Shown here: in pieces, positions 561-16,176 of the stretch
Layout: the number at the start of each line of letters is the position of its first letter
Numbering within the stretch: position 1 is the stretch's first letter
Assembly: GCF_003718735.1 (NCBI RefSeq)
Contig: NZ_CP033460.1
Coordinates: 558,001-622,000, forward strand
Direction of reading: 5' to 3'
Length of the DNA stretch: 64,000 nt
From: Staphylococcus debuckii
GTDB taxonomy: Bacteria > Bacillota > Bacilli > Staphylococcales > Staphylococcaceae
Program-made: the position numbers and the translations under genes
The notes under the pieces: generated by a model
The model's input: only the letters and a program-made list of their open reading frames with translations
Databases searched by the model: none
Told to the model about the DNA's origin: nothing

Positions 561-3500
561 TTATTTATCTTCTTTTTTTCTTCTGCTGAATGCTGCTAAT
601 CCGAATAATACAAGGATTGAGCCAAGCAATGTTGTGTTAGCATTATTATCTTCATTACCAGTTTTTGGTAATGCTTTAGCTTTGTTAGCAGATGCAGCTT
701 TTTGATGTTTTGTTTCAGCTTTATCAGTTGCTGGTTGAGCTTTCTTAGCTTGTTTTTCAGGTGCAACTGTATTAACTTCGTCTTCATTAGATGTTATAAC
801 TTTATCTTTTTTCACTGGAGTTTTACCTTCAGGTACAACAGGTTTAGTCGGCGTTGGTTTTGTTTTTGGAGTAGCTTTAACAGTTGGTGTATATTTAGCT
901 GTTACTACTGTACCATTTTTATCAACGCGTTTAACTACAACACCTTTACCTTCACCTGTAAAGTTAGGATCTGGAGTGAATGTAACTTTGCCAGATGGGT
1001 CGATAGTGTAAGTACCTTCGCCAGGAATAACAACTTTGTCGACTTCTTTTCCAGTGTTAGGAGCAATCAATTTAGGTGCAACCGTTTCGTCGATTGGTAC
1101 AAATGGATCTCCGCCTTCAAATGTAGGAGTACCAGTTTGAGGTTGACCTTGAACACCAGTAGATGTTGCAGGTGTACCTTTAGGTGTTACTGCTGTTACA
1201 GTTGGAACGAACTTCGCAGTAACTGGTGTACCATTTTTATCGACACGTTTGACTTCGACGCCTTTGCCTTCACCTTTGAATTGAGGATCCGGAGTGAAAG
1301 TGACTTTGCCGTCAGGATCAACAGTGTAAGTACCTTCGCCAGGAACTGTTACGTTGTCAACTTCGTTGCCAGTTTCAGGGTCGATCAATTTAGGCGCAAC
1401 GTTTTCGTTGATTGGTACTAAAGGGTCTCCGCCTTTGAATACAGGCGTACCTTCTTGAGGGTGACCTTGAAGGCCTGTAGATGTCGCAGGAGTACCAGTT
1501 GGTGTTACTGCAGTTACATTAGGTGTATAAGTCGTTTGAGCCGGCGTACCGTTCTTATCAACTCTTTCTACCGTAACTGGAGTTGCTTTTCCTGTGAATT
1601 TAGGGTCCGGAGTAAATGTTACTGTACCATCCTCATTCGCAGTATAAGTACCTTCATTAGGAATAGTTAAAGTAGGTACTTTATTTCCAGTTTGTGGGTC
1701 AACCAATTTAGGTGCAGCTGTTTCATCGATTGGCACTAAAGGATCTCCGCCTTTGAATTCAGGCGTACCAGTTTGAGGTTGTCCTTGAACACCAGTAGTT
1801 TCTGCTGGTTTTGCAGTTGGAATAACCTCATTTACTTTAGGTGTGTACTTCGCAGTAACCGGTGTACCGTTTTTATCGACGCGTTTGACATCGACACCTT
1901 TGCCTTCGCCTTTGAATTGAGGTTCTGGATTAAATGTTACCGTGCCATCTGGATTAGCTGTATAAGTACCTTCGCCAGGAACAGTTAAAGTATCAACTTT
2001 GGCACCAGTAGCTGGATCAACCAATTTAGGCGGCACGCTCTCATCGATTGGTACTGCTGGATCTCCTGCTTTAAATACTGGCGTACCAGTTTGAGGTTTA
2101 CCTTGAATATCTGTAGTCTCAACTGGATCAGCAGTTGGAGTAACAGCAGTTACTATTGGAATGTAAACAGCATCCATTGTAGTTGTTCCGTTTACACCAT
2201 TATTGTTATTTTCTAAGTTGTTTTCAGCTGTGTTGCTTGTCCAACCTGATGTGTTGCCGTTTAAGTCAGTTGCACGTAAAACAATACCTTTAGCTGTGCC
2301 AGTAAATTGAGGTTCAGGAGTGAAAGTGATAGAACCATCTGGAGCTATATCATATTTACCTTCACCAGGAACAGTTAAAGTAGAAACTAAGTTGCCTTGA
2401 TCATCGACAATTTTAATATCTTTAGTAGTATCAATTTCGTTCACTTTCGGCCAGTCTTTATCCACACGTCCATGAGCTGTAAATACCGCTTTAGATGTTT
2501 GAGGTTGTCCTTGAACACCTGTAGTTTCAGATTTTTCACCTCTAGGAGGGTGTACCACTCTGATTTCGAAGTCTTCTATTTCACCTGAATATGCTACACC
2601 GTTAGGACGATTTACTGAATCTTTAGCAAGAGAAGTACGTACTCTAACTCGTAAGTAATCAAGTGCATCATCCGTTAGCTGTGGAATGTTTTTAAATGTA
2701 AGTGTAATTTTCTTGCCATCAGCGCCAGTTCTAGAAACTGTTACGAGGTCTGAACCTTCTTTTTCATCAAATACACCATTGTTATTGAAATCAACCCAGC
2801 CACGAACATAAGATGTGTCGTTGTCGGCTGTATTTGCAATAACATCTAAGCTGTAAGATTGATCAGCAGCATTATAAACAACATATTTGTCTGTAACACC
2901 CACAAGTTGTTTTTCACCTTCATCAGGGTCTTTTACACTATTAGGGGTATTAATATCATCAGTTTCCCAGTTTTTATGTTGATCATCTAATGTATCAAAA
3001 TCAACATCGGCTTTCTGACTACCTAAGAATGGTTGACTAATATTACTATTCTCAGTTATAGCATGGATTGCTTCTCCATACGTTTCCGGAGCATCTCCCT
3101 TGTCTATAAGAACAAATCCCATTTGAACTGTTTGAATACCGGGTGAGTTTACAAAGAATGATACTTCGGTAGCACCAGTCGTTAATACAATAGGTACGCT
3201 ATTATAATCTTGTCTTGTTTGATTCGAACCAAATATTTGGGTACCTAAGCCGCCGAAATTCTCATCTGGAGTAGCATAATATTTACCTTTACCGTGCCCA
3301 CCCTTATCTATAGAGTCAGTAAAATATCCTTGTTTGGTTGTTTGAGGCATATAGTTTTCTGGGTTACCATCTTTTCTCGCATTAGCAAATAATTCCCAAC
3401 CACTACCATTAGTGGTATATATTAAAGATTCAATATTCTTTGCTTCTTCGCCGTCTGCCATAACAATATTAGCAGGAACTTCTTTGCCATTATAAATAGT

Positions 3501-4517
3501 TTTCACTTCGAAAGTAGCACCGACATTTCCATAATTTCGATTCGAACCAAAGTTTGTTAGTTCTTCTCCAGTATCAATGCCTGCTTTTTTAAGATGTGAC
3601 CAGTTTGGATCTTGTTTGGTAACAACTACGAAAGCCTCTTTATCAATTTCATCATCGTGAGCGTCTTTTCTTACAATATTAGTAGCATTAGGGTTATAAC
3701 CTGAATTGGGATCACCTTCTGCTCGACGTTTATACATTGGTGTTGCTTCGAAAGGTTGTAAAGATTTAACTGTAGCTTTCACTACTAAACCAGGCATAAT
3801 CTCTTTTTCATATTTTGTTCCGACTTTAAGGGCTATTTGGCCTGTATCACTTTGACCAACATTTGAAATTGCATTTTGATCAGAAAAATCAATCCATGTA
3901 ATTTGATTGTTGATATTCTTCACCTGTTCTTTAGTAGCGACAGGTAAGTCAGCTGCTTTTGTTACACCCGTTTGAACAGTAGGGTCGGGACCAACAATAT
4001 TATCTGATGCGTCTAAACTTGAACTTGCTGACTTAGCATTTTCTATAATAGCTTTATTATTTTCATAATTTGTAGGTGCTTTAATATTATCTTTAGTTTT
4101 AGATTCTGTATTTTCAACAGGTACCTTATCTTTATCAACATCAGGTTGAGCTTTAGGTTGGGCTGGTTTTGTATTTTGCTCTTGGGGAGCGGTATTATCA
4201 GTAGGTTTATTAGTATCTTGTTGTACCGGCGCAACGGGTTTATTTACACCTTTCTGTGCAGAGAGGGTAGGGTCTTTCGGAATATCTGTTGATGGAGCTT
4301 CTTTAGATTGGGTACTATCTTTAGGTTGTATTTCATCTGTTGTAGTTTTAACTATTTCTGCTTTTAATTCTTCTGTGCTAGCGCTTGCATCAGATGAAAA
4401 GCCTAAAAATAATAAACTGCTTACTAAAATGGAAGCTGTTCCTATTGAATATTTTCTTATTGAATATTTGTTGTAAATATTTTGTGGAAAGTTTGATTGA
4501 AGCTTTCGTTTTTTCAT
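561..4517 (-). CDS. YSIRK/LPXTG wall-anchored CshA-type fibrillar adhesin
   Basis: 1,318 aa. Residues 1-47 are a YSIRK-G/S signal peptide (YSIRKYSIGTAS, then a hydrophobic stretch ending SDASAS). Next come a low-complexity E/T/P/K-rich stretch to about 200, a non-repetitive region resembling the CshA non-repeat adhesin domain (about 200-485, ending near VNSPGIQTVQMGFVLIDKGD), and a GEVED-like domain (WVDFNNNGVFDEKE and SGEIEDFEI, about 490-665). Five CshA-type repeats of roughly 100 aa follow, each opening with a T-G-x-QGxPQ motif and containing VPGEGTY and FTPDPQF. The end is a sorting signal: LPKTG at about 1283, a membrane segment and RRKKEDK. Sortase A should link it to peptidoglycan. The first repeat is the most divergent and carries an insertion; the last four are very alike. 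An AGGAG site at 4526-4530 supports the start. It is divergent from the giant collagen-like gene. The ligand is unknown. Confidence 0.85.
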   Translation of the reverse strand: MKKRKLQSNFPQNIYNKYSIRKYSIGTASILVSSLLFLGFSSDASASTEELKAEIVKTTTDEIQPKDSTQSKEAPSTDIPKDPTLSAQKGVNKPVAPVQQDTNKPTDNTAPQEQNTKPAQPKAQPDVDKDKVPVENTESKTKDNIKAPTNYENNKAIIENAKSASSSLDASDNIVGPDPTVQTGVTKAADLPVATKEQVKNINNQITWIDFSDQNAISNVGQSDTGQIALKVGTKYEKEIMPGLVVKATVKSLQPFEATPMYKRRAEGDPNSGYNPNATNIVRKDAHDDEIDKEAFVVVTKQDPNWSHLKKAGIDTGEELTNFGSNRNYGNVGATFEVKTIYNGKEVPANIVMADGEEAKNIESLIYTTNGSGWELFANARKDGNPENYMPQTTKQGYFTDSIDKGGHGKGKYYATPDENFGGLGTQIFGSNQTRQDYNSVPIVLTTGATEVSFFVNSPGIQTVQMGFVLIDKGDAPETYGEAIHAITENSNISQPFLGSQKADVDFDTLDDQHKNWETDDINTPNSVKDPDEGEKQLVGVTDKYVVYNAADQSYSLDVIANTADNDTSYVRGWVDFNNNGVFDEKEGSDLVTVSRTGADGKKITLTFKNIPQLTDDALDYLRVRVRTSLAKDSVNRPNGVAYSGEIEDFEIRVVHPPRGEKSETTGVQGQPQTSKAVFTAHGRVDKDWPKVNEIDTTKDIKIVDDQGNLVSTLTVPGEGKYDIAPDGSITFTPEPQFTGTAKGIVLRATDLNGNTSGWTSNTAENNLENNNNGVNGTTTMDAVYIPIVTAVTPTADPVETTDIQGKPQTGTPVFKAGDPAVPIDESVPPKLVDPATGAKVDTLTVPGEGTYTANPDGTVTFNPEPQFKGEGKGVDVKRVDKNGTPVTAKYTPKVNEVIPTAKPAETTGVQGQPQTGTPEFKGGDPLVPIDETAAPKLVDPQTGNKVPTLTIPNEGTYTANEDGTVTFTPDPKFTGKATPVTVERVDKNGTPAQTTYTPNVTAVTPTGTPATSTGLQGHPQEGTPVFKGGDPLVPINENVAPKLIDPETGNEVDNVTVPGEGTYTVDPDGKVTFTPDPQFKGEGKGVEVKRVDKNGTPVTAKFVPTVTAVTPKGTPATSTGVQGQPQTGTPTFEGGDPFVPIDETVAPKLIAPNTGKEVDKVVIPGEGTYTIDPSGKVTFTPDPNFTGEGKGVVVKRVDKNGTVVTAKYTPTVKATPKTKPTPTKPVVPEGKTPVKKDKVITSNEDEVNTVAPEKQAKKAQPATDKAETKHQKAASANKAKALPKTGNEDNNANTTLLGSILVLFGLAAFSRRKKEDK

Positions 4518-5252
4518 TATTTTTTCTCCTATGTTCTTTATGTTGTTATGAAAAATTGAATTTAAAAATGGGAGGACGGGGGATTACTAATATCTCTAAT
4601 TATTTATGAGAGGTCAGATAATAACGATGGTTTAATTGTTGAATTATATTTAAGTACTGTATTTAGATGAATAGATATTTAATTTCATTTCTAGAATTGT
4701 TGGTTGCAGATGACATATTGAGAAAACAGAAATCTATAGTTAAAAATATTATGGCGGTGTTAAATATAATTAGTTACGCACGCTCCTTTTTATATAATGT
4801 CAACAACTAAACTACTGGAATATATTAACATGTTTAAGAGTAGATTGGAATAGATATTCTTAAATAAATTAATGTAATTTTTCCAGAATTTAAAATGAAA
4901 TTAATATTAATATATTACTAACGTTTGAATTTTATAACTCGAGTCTTAGTGTGATTAATTATGCTTGTTCTAATAATATAAGTAATGACAAAAATAATAT
5001 TTCTTTACTTATTTACTTCTATAAATAATGCGTGCAGGAAACATTTTAACTAACAAAAGATATAAATGCATATATCTATATGACTTTTTTTCGATAGAGA
5101 TATAATTGACACATTTAATGCGACGTTAATATTTTTAGTACTCACATGAAAAAGTATATGATATAATGATTTTGCACTATGGAATAATATTAAATATACG
5201 ATTTGTTTAGTATTAAATGGTGCATAACATCAAAGGAAAACGGAGGACATCA
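4518..5252. other. A+T-rich divergent intergenic region between two surface-protein genes
   Basis: About 735 bp with no credible ORF. It must hold both divergent promoters. For the plus-strand gene a TTGACA (5106-5111) and a separate perfect TATAAT (5162-5167) are visible, but they are too far apart to form one promoter, so the start site is uncertain. I see no obvious repeat or RNA gene. Confidence 0.5.
4643..4671 (-). promoter_or_regulatory. Candidate promoter of the CshA-type adhesin gene
   Basis: On the minus strand, a perfect -10 TATAAT (4643-4648 on the plus axis) lies 17 bp from a weak -35 TTCATC (4666-4671). The leader would be about 120 nt. Only the -10 is convincing. Confidence 0.35.
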
Positions 5253-8200
5253 ATGAAACAACGTAAAAGCAAGCGTTTAGACTTCTTGCCAAATATTCAT
5301 AATAAGTATTCGATTCGTAAGTTTACAGTCGGCACAGCATCTATTTTATTAGGTTCTACTTTAATTTTTGGGGCTAGCCATGAAGCAGAAGCAGCAGAAA
5401 ATGATTCGACAGCAGCCACTCAAAATTTAAATGATTCTGATGAGGTACCATCAACTACAGAGCAGCAGGTAAAACAAAGTGAAGAGCAGCAACCAGTAAG
5501 CGATGAAGCAAAACTGAAACAAAGTAATGTATCGTCAGAAAATGTTTCTGAAAATAAATCGGGTATTAAAGATACACCAGAAAAAGTTTCTGAAAGCAAT
5601 GAAGTTCTAAAACCAGAAGTGAAAGAAGAAACTCCTAAAGCATCTGAGAATGCACCGGATTTAAAGAATGATTATTCTGACTTTTCTTCAGACAAAACAA
5701 AAAAGTCGTCAGAAAATCATTTAGAAAAGAATAATGAACAAGTAAATAGTAGTATAAATAATAATGAAAAAGATTCACTTGCGGAAGTTACTGTACCAGA
5801 AACTCCAATACAGCCAGGGCATCTTCCGGAAGCAGTTGAAGCACCACAAGAATTCATTTCAAAATATGAAGCGTCATCAGATCATGCTGGATTAGTTCGT
5901 GAAATGTTGGCAGAAAATTATAATTCAGAAGATGTTGAAGGTATTTTGAATAAATGGGATGTTGACTATAATACAATTTCGCCTGAAGATTTATTTTCAG
6001 AAATAATTAAAGCAGGTATTTTATATGCTAACGAGCAAACATCTAAATATTCTGTATATGCAGTTCGTGCTATGCCAGGTGATGCAAATGCACCTACTAT
6101 GGCGGACAGCGATCCAGCTGATAGCGATTCAACTTTATTTGATTCAGAAACTAGTTCTAATGTTTCTATTCCTAAGAAAGCATCAGCTTCAGAAGCAATA
6201 GGAGCTTTGAAAGCAGAAGCTTCAATTAATCCTAATACAGGTATAGAAATTACTGGGGATGGTATGACATATAGTGGGCAAAAGCCAGCTTCATATGTTA
6301 TCAATGCAATCCCAGATAAAGCGCATAATAAGATGAATTTTGAAATTAAATATTATGTTACGCCAGGTACAGGCCAAACACACGCTATAGATTTAGGTGG
6401 TTTTAATTTTGGTGACGGATTTGTATTGCCACCTGAAGGAGGAGCAATTAATACTACTGTTGATATGGTAGGAACGACTGCTAAACCAAGTACTGTTAGA
6501 TTGCTGGAGGGCAAAACAAAACCAGGTTATCCTCAAGGATATGCTTTAGAAAGTAGACCTTTCCTTAGTGATTTTGCCGTTAAGAATAATGGATATGCTG
6601 ATGTCAAATTTAGTTTGCCAGTTAAAGATTGGAACGGAGATTTGAGTGTAAACGGTTATGTAATGATGTATCCTAATGGAGGAAACTATTCAACTACTTT
6701 AAATCCGTATTCAACTCAAAACTATTTCAATAAAAATATGCAAGTAATTTTAGATGGAAACGTTGATTTGAATTTACACAAAAAGAATAAAGTATCTACA
6801 GAGCCCGTGCCATTTGAAAAAGAGTATATAATTTCTAAAGATATTCCGGTAGGATCTCAGCGAGTTACAACAAAAGGTAAAGATGGTTTGAAAGAAGTCA
6901 ATAATTCAGTTTGGTATTATAAAAACGTAGCTATAGGTTCAGAAGTAGACAGCGAAAAAATACTCAAAGCACCTATCAATGAAGTTATTGAACTAGGTAT
7001 TGGGGATATAGACAATGCAGGTTTACAAGCTCCTGTTATAGACCCTCAACTTTCTAAAACACAGGTTGTTACAGGAACAGCCTCTCCTAATTCTAACGTA
7101 GAAATTAAGGTAGGCAATAAAACTTATAATACAACAGCAGATAATCAAGGTAACTTTACTCAACGATTAAATACTCCTTTACAAGAAGGAGATAGAATTA
7201 CTGCTATTGCTCATAAGGACGGTAAAACAAGCCAACCAGGAAAAACAATTGTACCGAGAGACGGACGTCCGGCTGAGTTAGAAACAATCACTTCTCGTGG
7301 AAATGATCAAGGTAAGCAGGGAACTTGGGTAACAATTACTGATAAATCAAATGGTCAAGAAATTAGTCGTTTCTTTGTACCAGATGGAGAAGCCGGAGCA
7401 CAAGGTGCGAAAGGTGAAAAAGGAGATAGAGGAGAATCCATTAAAGTAAAAAGTTCTGGTTTATTACCAAACGGTAATATGCAAGTAACCTTTACTGATG
7501 AAAATTCTGTAGTAGTTCCTCAAGGTCCTCAAGGTATCCAAGGTGAAAGAGGACCACAAGGAGATTCAATTACTGTTCAAGATACTGAAAAATTACCAAA
7601 TGGAGATACTAAAGTAATTTTTACTGACGGTACTGAAATAACTATTCCTAAAGGTGATAAGGGAGATCCTATACGTATAGTTGATACTACACAGATACTA
7701 ACGGGGACGAGAGTAACCTTTAGTGATGGAACAAATATTATTATTCCGAAAGGTGCTCAAGGTCCTAAAGGAGATAAAGGAGATAGAGGCGCTACAGGTA
7801 GAGATGGAGACGATGGAGAACGTGGTGAAACTGGTCCAGCAGGTCCGGCAGGTACTTCAATTGGTATAAAAACTACTGAAAAATTGCCTAATGGAGATAC
7901 AAAGGTAACTTTCACGGACGGTAAATCTATAACCATACCAAAAGGAGAAGACGGTAAATCCATTACTGTTACAAACTCTGCTCCTGATAATAATGGAGAT
8001 ATTGTTGTAACATTTAGTGATGGTAGTACGGTAAAAGTACCTAAAGGTGCTAAAGGAGATCGTGGAGAAGTTGGAGCACAAGGTGCGAAAGGTGAAAAAG
8101 GCGATGCAGGAGATTCAATCCGTATTACTACAACTGAACCACAATCAAATGGAGATATTAAAGTTAACTTTAGTGACGGCAAGTCAATTATTGTTCCTAA

Positions 8201-11200
8201 AGGCGATAAAGGAGACAAAGGTCAAGATGCCGCACCATTAACTGTTACAAGTGAATCAAAAGATAAAGATGGTAATACAGTAGTACATTTCAGCGATGGA
8301 AAAACAGCTACTATCTCTAAAGGAGATCCTGGAGTTGCGGGTCCTAAAGGAGACAAAGGAGACCGTGGCGAACAAGGTACTAAAGGAGACAAAGGAGATA
8401 CTGGAGCTGCTGGAGCAAACGGAAAAGATGCTGCACCATTAACTGTCACTAGTGAAGCAAAAGATGCAGACGGCAACACAGTAGTCAACTTCAGTGATGG
8501 CTCTCATGTTACGATTTCTAAGGGAGATAAAGGAGACCGTGGCGAACAAGGTACAAAAGGTGAAAAAGGCGACCCAGGTAAAGACGGAGCAGCCGGTGCA
8601 CAAGGTGAAGCAGGTGCTAAAGGTGAGAAAGGCGATTCTATTTCAATCGTAAGCATCACACCACAATCTAACGGCGACACTAAAGTAATCTTTTCAGATG
8701 GCAAGGAATTAACGATTCCTAAAGGTGAAAAGGGCGACAAAGGTGAAGCAGGTCAAAATGCTACACCATTAACTGTAACTGAAACAACTAAAGATCCGGA
8801 TGGTAATACGGTTGTACACTTCAGTGATGGAAAAACAGCAACAGTCTCTAAAGGTGATAAAGGAGATACTGGTGCTGCAGGAGCAAATGGTAAAGACGCA
8901 GATCCGCTTACAGTAGTGAAAGAGTCCAAAGATGCAGACGGCAATACAGTCGTTGAATTCAGCGATGGCCAAACAGCAGTTGTTTCTAAAGGCGACAAAG
9001 GTGAAGCAGGTCAAGATGCTAAACCACTCACAGTCACTTCTTCAGAAAAAGATGCTGCAGGCAATACAGTAGTTCATTTCAGTGACGGCTCAGCAATCAC
9101 AGTAGATAAAGGAGCCCGCGGTGAACAAGGTGCTAAAGGTGAGCAAGGTGAAAAAGGCGAAAATGGTACATCTGTTTCTATCGATAAAATTGAAAAATTA
9201 CCGGATGGAGCTACAAAAGTAACCTTCTCTGACGGAAAATCATTTGAAATTCCAAAAGGCCAAGATGGTACTTCAGTTACAATTACTGAGACAAAAACAT
9301 TGCCGAATGGTAATAAACAAGTCACTTTCTCTGACGGTAAAACGTTAGAAATCCCTAAAGGCGACAAAGGTGATAAAGGTGAAGCTGGTGTTAACGGAAA
9401 AGATGCAGCGCCGCTTACAGTAGTGAAAGAATCTAAAGATGCTGCAGGCAACACAGTCGTTGAATTCAGCGATGGTTCAACAGCTACTATCTCTAAAGGA
9501 GAGAAAGGCGAACAAGGTGAAGCCGGTGCTCAAGGAGCAAAAGGCGACAACGGTGAATCTATCACAATCAAGAGCATCGATCCGCAAGCGAACGGCGACA
9601 CTAAAGTCACTTTCTCTGATGGCAAAGAATTAACAATCCCTAAAGGTGAAAAAGGCGAAAATGGAGCAGCAGGAAAAGATGCGGAACCATTAACAGTTGT
9701 TAACACAACTAAAGACCCAGACGGCAACACAGTTATCCACTTCAGTGATGGCCAAACAGCAACTGTCTCTAAAGGAGATAAAGGAGATGCCGGAGTTAAT
9801 GGTAAAGATGGTGCTAACGGAAAAGACGCTGCACCACTTACAGTAGTGAAAGAATCTAAAGATGCTGCAGGCAATACAGTTGTAGAATTCAGCGATGGCT
9901 CAACAGCTACAATCTCTAAAGGAGATAAAGGCGAACAAGGTGAAGCTGGCGCTCAAGGAGCAAAAGGCGACAACGGTGAATCTATCACAATCAAGAGCAT
10001 CGATCCGCAAGCGAACGGCGATACGAAAGTAACGTTCTCTGACGGCAAAGAATTAACAATTCCTAAAGGGGAAAAGGGCGAAAATGGAGCAGCAGGAAAA
10101 GATGCGGATCCATTAACAGTAGTTAACACAACTAAAGACCCAGACGGCAACACAGTTATCCACTTCAGCGACGGTCAAACAGCAACTGTCTCTAAAGGAG
10201 ATAAAGGAGATGCCGGAGCAAAAGGCGAAGCTGGTGAAAAAGGAGCAGACGGACAATCTATTACGATTAAGTCTACTGAAACAACACCAGATGGCGATAC
10301 AAAAGTCACATTCTCTGACGGACAAGTAATTACTATTCCTAAAGGTAAAGATGGTAAATCTATCACTGTAGATAATTCAGCACCTGATAAAGATGGTAAT
10401 ACAGTCGTACATTTCAGCGATGGTTCTGAAGTCGTTATTCCGAAAGGGGAAAAAGGCGAAGCTGGAGCAAAAGGCGAAGCTGGTGAAAAAGGAGCAGATG
10501 GTCAAAACGGTAAAGATGGACAATCTATTACGATTGATAGTATTGAACCACAAGCGAATGATGATACGAAAGTTACATTCTCAGACGGTCAATCTATTAC
10601 AATACCAAAAGGCAAAGATGGCCAATCTATTTCTATTACTAATACTGAAACACTCCCTAACGGCAATAAACAAGTAACGTTCTCAGATGGTAAAACGCTT
10701 GAAATCCCTAAAGGTGATAAGGGAGAAAATGGCGATTCTGTAACTGTACAAGATACACAAACACTTCCTAATGGTGATACTGAAGTAACGTTCTCAGATG
10801 GTAAAAAAGTTACAATTCCAAAAGGAAAAGACGGTGTTGATGGTAAAGACGGCAAAGACGCTGCGCCACTTACAGTAACAAGCACTGAGAAAGATGCAGA
10901 TGGCAACACAGTTGTACACTTCAGTGATGGCGGTACGGCTACTATCTCTAAAGGTGACAAAGGTGATGCAGGTGCTAAGGGAGAAAATGGCGAATCTATC
11001 ACCGTAGATCACATCAATAAATTACCAAACGGCGATTCTGAAGTCGTCTTCAGCGACGGTAAAACAGTAACAATCCCTAAAGGTGAGAAAGGTGATGCAG
11101 GAGAAAATGCCGCACCACTTACAGTAACAAGCTCTGATAAAGATGCAGACGGCAACACAGTTATTCACTTCAGCGATGGTAGCACAGCTACTGTTTCTAA

Positions 11201-14200
11201 AGGAGATAAAGGTGACCAAGGTCTTCAAGGTAATCCAGGTGAAGCAGGCGCTAAAGGTGATTCAATCACAATTAATAGCATTGAAACACAACCAAATGGC
11301 GACACTAAAGTTTCTTTCTCTGATGGAAAAGAATTAACAATTCCAAAAGGAGCAAAAGGCGACAAAGGTGATAAAGGTGACACAGGCGCAGCTGGTAACG
11401 GTACTTCAGCAACACCATTAACAGTAACTGGAACTGATAAAGATGCAGACGGCAATACTGTTATCCACTTCAGTGACGGTTCACAAGCAGTCGTTTCTAA
11501 AGGCGACAAAGGTGAACGCGGCGAAGCAGGTGCACAAGGCGAAGCAGGCACACCAGGTAAATCGATTACTGTTCAAAATGTAGGTCCGGATGCAGACGGC
11601 AATACTGTACTTGAATTTAGTGATGGTTCACATGTGACAATCCCTAAAGCTAAAGACGGTGCAGCTGGTAAAGATGGTATTGACGGTAAATCAATCACAA
11701 TTACATCTTCAGAAGTTCAACCGGACGGAACAACTAAAGTAACGTTCAGTGATGGACACGAAGTAGTAATTCCGAAAGGTGAAAAAGGAGATAAAGGTGC
11801 AGATGCAACACCATTAACTGTAACTGGCTCAACTCAAACACCAGACGGCAATACTGAGGTTACATTCTCTGACGGTTCTAAAGTTGTGATTCCTAAAGCG
11901 AAAGATGGTGTGAACGGTAAAGACGGTGCATCAATCACAGTCCAAAATACTGAAACAACACCAGATGGCGATACTAAAGTAACCTTCTCAGACGGCTCTT
12001 CAGTTACGATTGCTAAAGGTGCTAAAGGAGATAAAGGTGATAACGGAGCAGACGGACAATCCATTACGGTTCAAAGTGTAAAACCAGATGCAGACGGTAA
12101 TACTGAGGTCACATTCTCAGATGGTTCTAAAGTAGTTATCCCTAAAGCGAAAGATGGAGCTGCAGGTAAAGACGGCGTTGATGGTCAATCAATTACGATT
12201 ACTGATACAGCAGTACAACCGGATGGTTCAACTAAAGTGACGTTCAGTGACGGTCATGAAGTTACTATTCCAAAAGGCGCGCAAGGCGATAAAGGTGCAG
12301 ACGGTACTTCAGTCACTGTCGCAAATGTAGAACCGCAACCAGATGGTTCAACTAAAGTGACATTTAGCGATGGAAAAGAAGTAGTTATCCCTAAAGGAGA
12401 AAAAGGAGATAACGGAGCACAAGGTGAAGCGGGCGCTGCAGGTAAAGATGGTCAATCAATTACAATTGCAGATACTGCTACAGATGCAGATGGTAATACA
12501 GTTATCACATTCAGTGACGGTACTAAAGTTGTTGTACCTAAAGGTGCTAAAGGCGACACAGGAGCCGCAGGTAAAGATGGTGCTGATGGACAATCAGTTA
12601 CAGTTCAAAATACTGAAACAACACCAGACGGCGACACTAAAGTAACCTTCTCAGATGGCACTTCAGTTACAATCGCTAAAGGCGCTAAAGGTGATAATGG
12701 AGCAGACGGTACATCTATTACTGTTGCTAAAGTAGAACCTCAGCCAAATGGTGATACTAAAGTTACATTCTCTGACGGCAAAGAAATTGTGATTCCTAAA
12801 GGAGAAAAAGGCGACAAAGGTGATAATGGTGAGGCTGGTGCCCCAGGTACTTCAGTTACTGTCGCAAATGTAGAACCGCAACCAGATGGTTCAACTAAAG
12901 TGACATTCAGTGACGGAAAAGAAGCTGTCATGCCTAAAGGCGAAAAAGGCGATACAGGAGCACAAGGTGAAGCTGGCCAAAATGGTAAAGATGGTCAATC
13001 TATCACAGTTCAAAGTACAGCTCCAGACGCAGACGGCAATACAGTGGTAACCTTCTCTGATGGATCTAAAGTTGTTCTTCCAAAAGCCAAAGACGGTGTG
13101 AACGGTAAAGATGGTGCGTCAGTCACAGTTCAAAATACTGAAACAACACCTGAAGGCAACACTAAAGTAACCTTCTCAGATGGACATGAAATCACAATCG
13201 CGAAAGGCGACAAAGGTGATAAAGGTGACTCAGTCACTGTTGCTAAAGTAGAACCTCAACCAAACGGTGATACTAAGGTCACATTCAGTGACGGCAAAGA
13301 AGTTGTAATTCCTAAAGGTGAAAAAGGTGACGCAGGTAAAGACGGTGTAGACGGTAAAGATGCACCACCTCTAACTGTTACAAACACTGAAAAAGATGCA
13401 GACGGCAATACAGTCATCCACTTCAGCGATGGTGGCACAGCTGTCATCTCTAAAGGAGATAAAGGAGCAGATGGTCAATCCATCACTGTTCAAAATGTAG
13501 AGCCAGACGCAGACGGCAACACTGAAGTAACCTTCTCAGACGGCTCTAAAGTTACAATTCCAAAAGCCGAAGATGGTGTTGATGGCAAATCAATTACTGT
13601 TACTGGTAACGAAACATTGCCAAGTGGAGATGTTAAAGTAACCTTCTCAGATGGACATGAAATCATTGTTCCTAAAGGCGCTAAAGGTGATGCTGGAGAA
13701 TCTGTGACAGTTGTGAAAACTGCTAAAGACGCAGATGGTAACACAGTTGTAGAATTCAGTGATGGAAGCAGCGTTACAATTCCTAAGGGAGATAAAGGCG
13801 ACAAAGGAGAAGATGGTACTTCAGTAACTATTACAAGTACTTCAGTACAACCAGATGGCACTACTAAAGTAACATTCTCTGACGGTCGTGAAATCAATAT
13901 TCCTAAAGGCTTAGACGGTAAATCAGTTACTATTACTAAAGCTGAACCAGATGCAGATGGCAATACAGTTATTGACTTCAGTGACGGCTCTAAAGTAACT
14001 GTACCAAAAGGTCAAGATGGCAAATCAATTACTATCACTAATACTGAAAGCTTGCCAAACGGAGACGTGAAAGTCACATTCAGTGATGGACATGAAGTCG
14101 TAGTACCTAAAGGTGCTAAAGGAGATAAAGGTGAAGATGGACAATCTATCACAATTACTTCTTCTGCAGTACAACCAGATGGTAATACGAAAGTAGTCTT

Positions 14201-15815
14201 CAGCGATGGACACGAAATTGTTGTACCTAAAGGTCAAGACGGCAAATCAATTTCTATCGTTTCAACAACTAAAGACCCAGACGGTAACACAGTTGTAGAA
14301 TTCAGCGATGGTACTTCAGTTACAATTGCTAAAGGCGATAAAGGTGAACAAGGCTTAAACGGTAAGGGTGGTCGTGATGGTCAAGACGGCAAATCAATTA
14401 CAGTAACTGGCCAAACTATTGATCCGGATGGTAATACGAAAGTAACATTCAGTGATGGCAACTCAATCACTGTACCAAAAGGCCAAGACGGCACATCTGT
14501 CACTGTGAAAGATTCACACCAAGATGCAGACGGCAACACAGTTGTAGAATTCTCTGACGGTAACACAATCACTGTGTTAAAAGGTAAAGACGGAAAAGAC
14601 GGCTTGAACGGTCAGGACGGCAAAGATGGCAAATCTATCACAATTACTGGTCAATCTGTAGATCCGAACGGCAATACTGTTGTGACATTCAGTGATGGCA
14701 ACTCAATTACTGTATCTAAAGGTCAAGATGGCAGATCTGTTTCTGTTAAAGACTCACACCAAGATGCAGACGGCAACACAGTTGTAGAATTTACTGATGG
14801 AAATACAATCACTGTCTTGAAAGGTAAAGATGGAAAAGACGGCAAAGATGGCAAGTCTATCACAATCACTGGCCAATCTGTAGACCCGAACGGCAATACA
14901 ATTGTGACATTCAGCGATGGCAGAGAAATCACTATTCCAAAAGGCAAAGACGGCGTATCTGTTACTGTTAAAGATTCACATCAAGATAAAGATGGTAATA
15001 CTGTCGTAGAATTTAGCGATGGCAATACAATTACAGTCATGAAAGGTAAAGACGGACGTGACGGTATTAATGGTAGAGACGGTAGAGATGGTAGAGACGG
15101 ACGCGATGGACGTGATGGCAGAGATGCTCAACCAACAGCACCTGTTTATATCGTGAATAATTACATTGATCAATATAATACAAACATTATTGTATTTAGC
15201 GATGGTCAACGTATCGAAATTCCATGCGATGAAAATGGTAATGCAGTTGTGATTATTGGATATAACCACGATGTGAAAGGTAACGTAGTATTGCAATGTG
15301 CAAATAAAACTAAAATTATCGTACCTTGTCATAAACCTGAAACACCAAAAGTTACGATTCCAATGATTCCATTAGTGCCAGCAACACCTGTTGTACCGAA
15401 TCAACCAGTGACACCGACACCAAGTGGACCAAATCATCCAGGTAAATCACCGAACGATGGTGGACAAACTAACACGCCGCTTGTACCAAATCAAAATACA
15501 ACACCAAGTAATTCTCGACCAACTCCACCAGTAACAGGCACTCACACACCTGTTGTAAACCATGACGGTGGTCATAAAGTTGGAAACCCAGAACCAAATC
15601 ATCAACCAGAAGTAAAAACAACTACGAAAGTTTCAACACCAAATAAAGTAGCTACTCAACCAAGCAAAGCGAAACCAGAACAAAATCAACCAAAAGCAAA
15701 AGTATTACCAAATACAGGCGCTAACGATACAGCACCAATGCTTTATGGTACTATCTTTGCTGGCTTAGGAACTGCAATGATGTTCGGCATGAAACGTCGT
15801 AAAAATCAAAAATAA
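5253..15815 (+). CDS. Giant YSIRK/LPXTG wall-anchored protein of alternating collagen-like and FSDG repeats
   Basis: 3,520 aa from ATG 5253, chosen over an upstream in-frame ATG (5217) because GGAGG (5242-5246) sits correctly before it and the signal peptide then begins normally. Order: [12 protein letters not shown] signal peptide; S/E/K-rich stretch to about 215; a unique N-terminal region (to about 610); a bacterial Ig-like module ([18 protein letters not shown], about 610-675); then from about 712 to 3291 roughly 60 units. Each unit has a beta-like segment (typically [22 protein letters not shown] plus xxVTIPKG) followed by a short Gly-X-Y run rich in GDKGDKG, GEAG and GKDG. The array ends in repeated Gly-Arg-Asp triplets, a degenerate cap with three cysteines (3325, 3349, 3359), a P/T/N-rich wall-spanning region and LPNTG (3485-3489) with membrane anchor and RRKNQK. 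It is probably an extended surface fibre, possibly trimeric through the collagen-like runs (inference). The binding partner is unknown. Confidence 0.88.
7390..15126 (+). repeat. Coding repeat array: about 60 FSDG/Gly-X-Y units
   Basis: Every 30-50 codons an F-S/T-D-G motif followed by V/I-P-K-G recurs, with intervening Gly-X-Y runs of about 2 to 12 triplets. I counted about 59 canonical units and two degenerate ones after them. Codon choice varies between units (for example GAC/GAT and AAA/AAG), so most are not recent copies; a few are near-identical. Confidence 0.9.
9393..10238 (+). repeat. Near-identical 423-bp tandem duplication inside the repeat array
   Basis: The segment beginning AACGGAAAAGA at 9393 recurs at 9816, an offset of 423 nt (141 codons). 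Both copies encode [18 protein letters not shown], then the [16 protein letters not shown] unit, then [15 protein letters not shown] or [15 protein letters not shown], with only scattered synonymous changes. Confidence 0.75.
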
Positions 15816-15836: not shown

Positions 15837-15867
15837 GAGCCAGGCCACCGTGCCTGGTTCTTTTTTA
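15837..15867 (+). terminator. Terminator of the giant surface-protein gene
   Basis: Stem GAGCCAGGC (15837-15845) with GCCTGGTTC (15852-15860), then six T. Confidence 0.9.
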
Positions 15868-16058: not shown

Positions 16059-16176
16059 AACTCTTATCCAGAGAGGTGGAGGGACAGGCCCTATGAAACC
16101 TCGGCAGCAGGATCGAAATCGTAACTATTCGATTACTGTGCCAATTCCTACAGCAAATGCTGTAAAGATGAGACGA
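16059..16176 (+). ncRNA. SAM-I (S-box) riboswitch aptamer
   Basis: The conserved S-box features are present in order: the CTCTTATCCAGAGAGGTGGAGGG segment (P1/P2 with the kink-turn region), then CCCTATGAAACCTCGGCAGC, the P3 hairpin, GTGCCAATTCC and the closing GATGAGAC. S-box RNAs bind S-adenosylmethionine and cause premature termination when methionine is plentiful. An intrinsic terminator and metNIQ follow, which is the expected context. The final GAGAC can pair back with the opening strand to form P1. Confidence 0.96.

Follow-up and report, generated by a model that had tools for sequence, protein, structure and literature searches.

How can a bacterial wall protein make a fibre out of collagen-like runs that are individually very short? 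The question is raised by a single open reading frame (ORF) at 5253-15815, forward strand, of a 64,000-nucleotide stretch of the Staphylococcus debuckii genome (contig NZ_CP033460.1, positions 558,001 to 622,000; hereafter the window), which encodes a YSIRK/LPNTG surface protein of 3,520 residues, followed by a stop codon. On balance we favour an adhesin of the type of SlsE from S. lugdunensis, built of three parallel chains in which beta nodes alternate with short triple helices above a cross-linked base. In such a fibre the head would bind a host or cell-surface ligand and the stalk would carry it a few hundred nanometres from the cell. The three chains would most likely run parallel, with their beta units packed face to face into nodes that keep register, and between these nodes the Gly-X-Y runs, whose length would not suffice for stability in isolation, would fold into triple helix. 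At the base, two terminal cysteine-bearing beta units would cross-link the chains. A covalently locked three-chain fibre, with register kept by beta nodes exchanged wholesale between families and a cysteine knot at the cell-wall end, in a genome whose other wall proteins, so far as examined, are almost cysteine-free, is a possibility that we put forward only tentatively. Animal collagens have C-terminal cysteine knots comparable to the base knot proposed here.

Counting as a Gly-X-Y run at least three Gly at a spacing of three (shorter runs fall outside the count), we found 48 runs of 3-13 Gly each between residues 712 and 3291, amounting to 266 triplets or 798 residues, and the motif F[ST]DG occurs 59 times in the whole protein. 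Shuffling residues 681-3300 at constant composition 200 times gave a mean of 9.0 runs (maximum 16) and 0.28 motifs (maximum 3), as compared with the 48 and 58 observed. A first-pass annotation of this DNA had proposed a segmented stalk alternating collagen-like runs with beta units, and counts so far above the shuffles bear this out. Its estimate of about 60 FSDG segments agrees with the motif count; for its roughly 60 Gly-X-Y runs of about 2-12 triplets the alternation stood, with the number lower by our definition. The same annotation had overlooked the predicted folded G5 head, the spacing in whole triplets and three cysteines just below the stalk. Pfam's Collagen family (PF01391) matched 20 stretches above its curated cut-off (125.4 bits, cut-off 27.2). 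A glycine in every third place is the hallmark of three chains packed together, and, at a rise of 0.286 nm per residue for the triple helix, the Gly-X-Y residues would by themselves extend over about 230 nm.

The spacing of the stalk provides a second line of evidence. Units were marked by [FV][STKR]D[GN] in 13 ORFs (the window and 12 relatives), and only intervals below 75 residues were counted; these range from 33 to 74. In 526 of 555 cases the unit-to-unit interval is congruent to 1 modulo 3, and in 29 it is not; a spacing of 34 accounts for 83. Measured in the window from the last Gly of one run to the first Gly of the next, the gap is 31 in 19 of 47 cases, 34 in 15 and 65, or two units, in 8. 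Since the gaps are mostly 31, 34 or 65, the beta unit is of approximately fixed length and it is whole triplets that vary. The 9-mers of the window runs are varied (121 distinct among 218) and adjacent Gly codons are identical in 85 of 218 pairs, near the random expectation (0.39 versus 0.37), hence the runs are not the product of fresh 9-bp slippage. This diversity points to selection on glycine. In addition, KGD/KGE-type pairs number 62 as against a shuffled mean of 25 (37 distinct runs), and such pairs stabilise the triple helix in host-guest peptides (PMC7824840; this and the other PMC articles cited here are represented by excerpts).

The beta unit itself is amphipathic. Among the 59 units, a hydrophobic residue (VILMFYW) stands at offsets −17 (98%), −15 (98%), −2 (100%), 0 (the motif Phe, 100%), +6 (80%) and +8 (100%), and at the intervening offsets −16, −14, −1, +1, +5 and +7 in 3%, 17%, 8%, 0%, 2% and 31%, respectively; offset −3 is mixed (46%). 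The six hydrophobic positions would be alternating sites of three strands, giving a sheet with one hydrophobic face that has no partner inside its own unit, which fits inter-chain packing. In profile searches the units matched the MiiA motif NF053582 above its cut-off (344.4 bits, cut-off 24, 33 stretches). DUF4988 (PF16378) scored 399.1 bits over 55 stretches (cut-off 30), but its best stretch spans only positions 37-80 of 183. Single MiiA-motif matches were also seen in giant ORFs of 8,715-10,627 residues in other genomes (G006, G066, G058), perhaps Ebh-like.

The alternative that survives best, although we consider it unlikely, is a monomer resembling beads on a string, in which the beta domains are independent or partly ordered, the Gly-X-Y runs serve as charged, flexible or polyproline-II spacers and the head is still an adhesin. 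Single-chain AlphaFold2 (AF2) modelling of four units from 27 aligned segments gave three strands per unit at low confidence (predicted local distance difference test, pLDDT, 50.2; predicted template modelling score, pTM, 0.34). Moreover, Pfam's Tcp10_C, the G-box/TCP beta sheet, matched 15 stretches, and a CPAP G-box chain was the best PDB match of a units-only profile, a weak one (E 0.026 over 10 positions); the G-box/TCP sheet is stable as a single layer. Yet a lone chain would leave one hydrophobic face exposed, nothing about a spacer calls for a Gly every three residues while X, Y and the Gly codons vary, and the number of cysteines per chain is frequently odd (see below). A confident monomeric solenoid, named beforehand as the result that would refute a trimeric fibre, did not appear in the four-unit model, whose pLDDT neither establishes nor dismisses such a fold. 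A WD40 propeller was rejected: WD40 chains, several of which are designed proteins, do match the four-unit profile (2ymu, E 6e-47), but repeat scores add up and the printed alignments cross Gly-X-Y linkers, and no WD40 chain was among the 13 matches of the units-only profile. Sequence searches of the PDB found no solved structure of the beta unit.

The unit also occurs in phage tail proteins. The PHROG tail-protein families phrog_28074 and phrog_29134 match the stalk, and 10 IMG/VR contigs (L064-L073) carry the unit in open frames of 331 to 2,865 residues, each with one to three F[STKN]DG motifs; all five of the phage proteins scanned matched tail families. As in the window, their units adjoin Gly-X-Y runs or single triplets, although these are tail and not wall proteins and have one to three motifs rather than dozens. 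Three units lie between an Mtd_N domain and a phage tail repeat in L064, and in L070 the unit shares its chain with a J-like part. Known Mtd- and J-family members are homotrimers, and by this analogy the phage occurrence is the best comparative hint of a three-chain unit. A tblastn search with one stalk segment retrieved 1 of 50,697 phage records, of which the BLAST low-complexity filter may mask others.

The base of the stalk, and its place in the protein as a whole, can be followed in this list of features (window coordinates).

5242-5246, forward strand: ribosome-binding site GGAGG for the ATG at 5253, read by eye
5253-5396, forward strand: YSIRK-type signal peptide, about residues 1-48 (PF04650, TIGR01168; end estimated by eye)
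5397-5846, forward strand: low-complexity N-terminal region, about residues 49-198 (from sequence; AF2 pLDDT below 50 at residues 181-190)
5847-6068, forward strand: predicted helical subdomain of the head, residues 199-272 (AF2 helices within model positions 19-92; aligned among relatives, alignment A1)
6231-6761, forward strand: predicted PsrP-BR-like beta domain of the head, residues 327-503, the probable ligand-binding part
6783-6998, forward strand: G5 domain, residues 511-582
7017-7259, forward strand: predicted Bap C-region-like Ig domain, residues 589-669
7386-15125, forward strand: segmented stalk, residues 712-3291, with the 48 Gly-X-Y runs and 58 of the 59 F[ST]DG motifs
15132-15338, forward strand: two terminal beta units without Gly-X-Y, residues 3294-3362, ending IPC and VPC (by eye; tail aligned in the window protein and 10 relatives)
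15225-15227, forward strand: Cys 3325
15297-15299, forward strand: Cys 3349
15327-15329, forward strand: Cys 3359
15339-15704, forward strand: Pro-rich wall-spanning region, residues 3363-3484 (from sequence)
15705-15812, forward strand: LPNTG sorting signal, membrane segment and charged tail, residues 3485-3520 (PF00746, TIGR01167)
15837-15866, forward strand: terminator-like hairpin with T run, read by eye without a terminator scan

The signal peptide and LPNTG of the first-pass annotation's 3,520-residue wall protein were upheld by profile matches above the cut-offs (PF04650, 41 bits against 20, and TIGR01168, 43.9 bits; PF00746, 24 bits against 20, and TIGR01167). An alternative in-frame ATG at 5217 would give 3,532 residues; the ATG at 5253 is preferred because of the GGAGG ahead of it.

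The three cysteines are the only ones in the window protein and lie 33, 57 and 67 residues past the last Gly-X-Y run; where the units that bear them end in IPC and VPC, the other units, by eye, end in PKG. We compared 15 related proteins with a C-terminal end, S. lugdunensis being represented by a tail piece only and L028 and L029 being dropped as their ORFs stop short of it. Within 150 residues below the stalk, a zone that makes up 4.6% of the length, lie 35 of the 39 mature cysteines. Their motif differs by group and is always below the stalk. The simulans group has three or more cysteines spread out, S. lugdunensis and L049 have CVPC, the Aerococcus protein has CCKPC, and a family outside the genus (f27) has CGC. 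A control set of nine further LPXTG-type ORFs from the window's genome, drawn from 15 anchor matches at E<=1 with the weakest left out, has 0, 0, 0, 0, 0, 1, 1, 1 and 2 cysteines in about 10,900 mature residues. This control excludes one antisense ORF, which has 3 cysteines, and two ORFs with YSIRK but no sorting motif, which have none. The sole cysteine of one control protein (L054) likewise lies close to the C-terminus, within a FIVAR domain. The genome encodes a further giant LPXTG protein, of 4,142 residues (L053; G000:C1:533076-545504), for which Pfam lists only the anchor at E<=1e-4.

From their placement, the base cysteines are likely to form a putative inter-chain lock, though they may instead be free thiols or a metal site. 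Of the 13 proteins with any cysteine in the zone, 9 have an odd number per chain (1, 3 or 5), so that in these at least one cannot pair within its own chain. The tails of three relatives (L026, L027 and L030) hold one cysteine each, and as a single cysteine links only two chains, the cysteines do not prove that there are three.

This last observation would also suit a parallel dimer or lateral bundle, in which disulfides join two chains and the G5/Bap-like parts drive cell-cell aggregation. We regard this as improbable: Gly at every third residue is a three-chain signature, and there is one G5 stretch only, with no G5-E array, even though the head has the G5 and Bap-like domains of biofilm proteins. 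The phage fibre gp68 of 80alpha (6v8i), the nearest PDB match to a collagen-plus-unit segment (E 1.6e-5), has a collagen-like segment and was modelled as dimers; it was rejected as a solved example of the unit, there being no density past residue 123 (PMC7048315). That neighbouring units of one chain pack in pairs or threes into nodules from which Gly-X-Y loops out, giving a monomeric nodular fibre, is very improbable, for although many units are only one triplet apart (the spacing of 34) and gaps of 65 recur in the window and in 39 of 58 cases in L049, unit spacing is variable and loops require no Gly periodicity.

Trimerising, chain-registering beta units are the best reading of indirect evidence, namely the exposed hydrophobic face, the triplet spacing, the lack of a confident monomer fold, the phage-tail units and the base cysteines. 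Anatomy, spacing, amphipathic pattern, cysteine placement and conservation are direct observations and the domain folds are predictions, whereas the oligomer, specifically a trimer, with its triple helix, disulfides and ligand binding, is inferred. Several points weigh against such a trimer. Repeat recombination alone could keep run lengths in triplets. Opposite charges are enriched within triplets as well (2.05, versus 2.80 across Gly, in 371 distinct runs), and the final stalk runs carry the reversed charge order (D/E-G-K/R, 13 versus 1); with like charges avoided almost equally in this within-triplet control, we rejected the KGD/KGE pairs as proof of a triple helix, with which they are only consistent. 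One relative (L025) is without cysteine, the four of L049 are placed partly in stalk units (two) and partly at +197 and +200 below the stalk, and the 15 proteins are related, so that their cysteines are not independent events. The unit of L070 lies about 850 residues beyond the J-like part. A low-confidence AF2 model from a 27-row alignment is no positive evidence, and a true monomeric fold might escape it. For gp68, in addition to the missing density, the authors, who had anticipated trimers, observed no more than twelve copies and give these as six dimers (PMC7048315). Finally, none of the indirect points separates a trimer from another oligomer.

The head is predicted from models to comprise a PsrP-adhesin-like domain, a G5 domain, which scored above the Pfam cut-off, and a Bap-like Ig domain, and because it carries these the protein is probably a sortase-anchored fibrillar adhesin of the SlsE type. 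Identity to the PsrP basic region (3zgh/3zgi) is 15%, and PsrP, unlike the window protein, is a Ser-rich repeat protein. The full-length head (best E below 1e-140) was found in 15 of 84 Staphylococcus genomes; at E<=0.001 there were matches in 56 of the 84, 41 of them only in pieces such as G5, Ig or the helical part. The size and architecture had been thought unusual for Staphylococcus, a view contradicted by these 15 genomes, by ORFs of up to 4,888 residues and by the published SlsE. Relatives came from S. simulans (three genomes), S. caledonicus, S. devriesei, S. lugdunensis, S. microti, S. rostri and an Aerococcus. Scanning genome contigs with the head of the window protein alone found no relative, as compared with 9 for head alignment A1. 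In 5 of the 12 relatives fetched first (L019, L021-L024) metN is next downstream, and the gene is therefore at the same chromosomal site there. In L019 (G063:C13) the head is split over two ORFs, one of 508 residues and the start of one of 4,290, so that the gene looks broken or misassembled.

In a class-wide sample, 296 of 398 genomes gave some match, among the matches listed mostly G5 or Ig pieces. The best outside the genus came from two genomes of family f27 (E 2.7e-37, head columns 119-378). The Aerococcus protein (L040) is 31% identical over the head, and an f27 protein of 4,209 residues (L050) is 28% identical over the BR and G5 region only; Pfam listed no G5 in either at E<=1e-4. In both, Gly-X-Y alternates with beta-like segments and there are no F[ST]DG motifs. 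The alternation is very regular in L050 (gap 33 in 57 of 66) and less so in Aerococcus (43-45 in 14 of 30). The family CFSR (PF19079) matches 10 stretches of the Aerococcus protein and 6 of L050, and is absent among the 20 families listed for the window protein at E<=10. As these relatives retain a large part of the head along with the alternation but have other, CFSR units, the collagen/beta design seems to outlive the particular beta unit.

Within the genus, the largest stalk seen is that of L049 (1134-15800), with 70 F[ST]DG motifs and 59 Gly-X-Y runs in 4,888 residues and with units mostly paired. The relatives from S. rostri (L026) and S. microti (L027) have Ser-Asp repeats, not a Pro-rich region, as the wall-spanning part. 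In best local matches to L020, L023 and L024, the C-terminal part of the stalk (13308-15079) has about 79-85% DNA identity, as against about 46-57% identity of the head proteins, and it is possible on this comparison that stalk pieces have been exchanged or converted between species.

The SlsE architecture is already known, as are Pfam's collagen-flanked repeats. SlsE, described in 2011 (PMC3615170), varies in length from 2,818 to 4,166 between 21 strains (PMC3615170, PMC6834553, PMC7763024). We infer that our S. lugdunensis gene (L029/L037) is SlsE from species and anatomy, not from an accession. Like the window protein, it has a homologous head, and SlsE has a G5 head beside a stalk of collagen and 31-residue repeats, with signal peptide and LPXTG anchor; it differs in a head identity of only 39% and in its CVPC tail. 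The excerpted accounts of SlsE (the same three articles) were not found to mention triplet register, head fold or cysteines, and the portions of open-licence PMC texts searched likewise yielded nothing on triplet register, head fold, cysteines at the base or the swapping of beta units from one family to another. CFSR resembles the window by name, as small repeats flanked by collagen, although its profile does not match, and PclA of Streptococcus pneumoniae is among the closest known systems by its description (PMC9276737, PMC8968730). Scl1/Scl2 of Streptococcus pyogenes are also wall-anchored and Gly-X-Y rich, and their profile NF038329 matches, but below the cut-off (216.5 bits against 325; NF038330, 120.4 against 400); an Scl has an N-terminal domain and then one collagen-like region (PMC8968730), a single long Gly-X-Y domain where the longest window run has 13 Gly. 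If the three-chain fibre is real, bacteria make very long fibres by using small beta nodes to clamp triple-helix pieces that fall far short of a length stable on their own. Nature would then supply a system for testing the minimal length and clamping rules of collagen, recombinant collagen could be given a modular design, and a little-studied staphylococcal group would become a defined family of fibrillar adhesins whose binding head is predicted.

The gene lies beside a divergent neighbour (561-4517, reverse strand) encoding a CshA-type fibrillar adhesin of 1,318 residues, with YSIRK and LPXTG signals, five CshA repeats and no cysteine in its mature part; the relative in L020 also adjoins a gene similar to this neighbour. 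Directly downstream of the wall-protein gene, an S-adenosylmethionine (SAM) riboswitch (16061-16174, forward strand, 79.4 bits) precedes a metN-metI-metQ-like operon.

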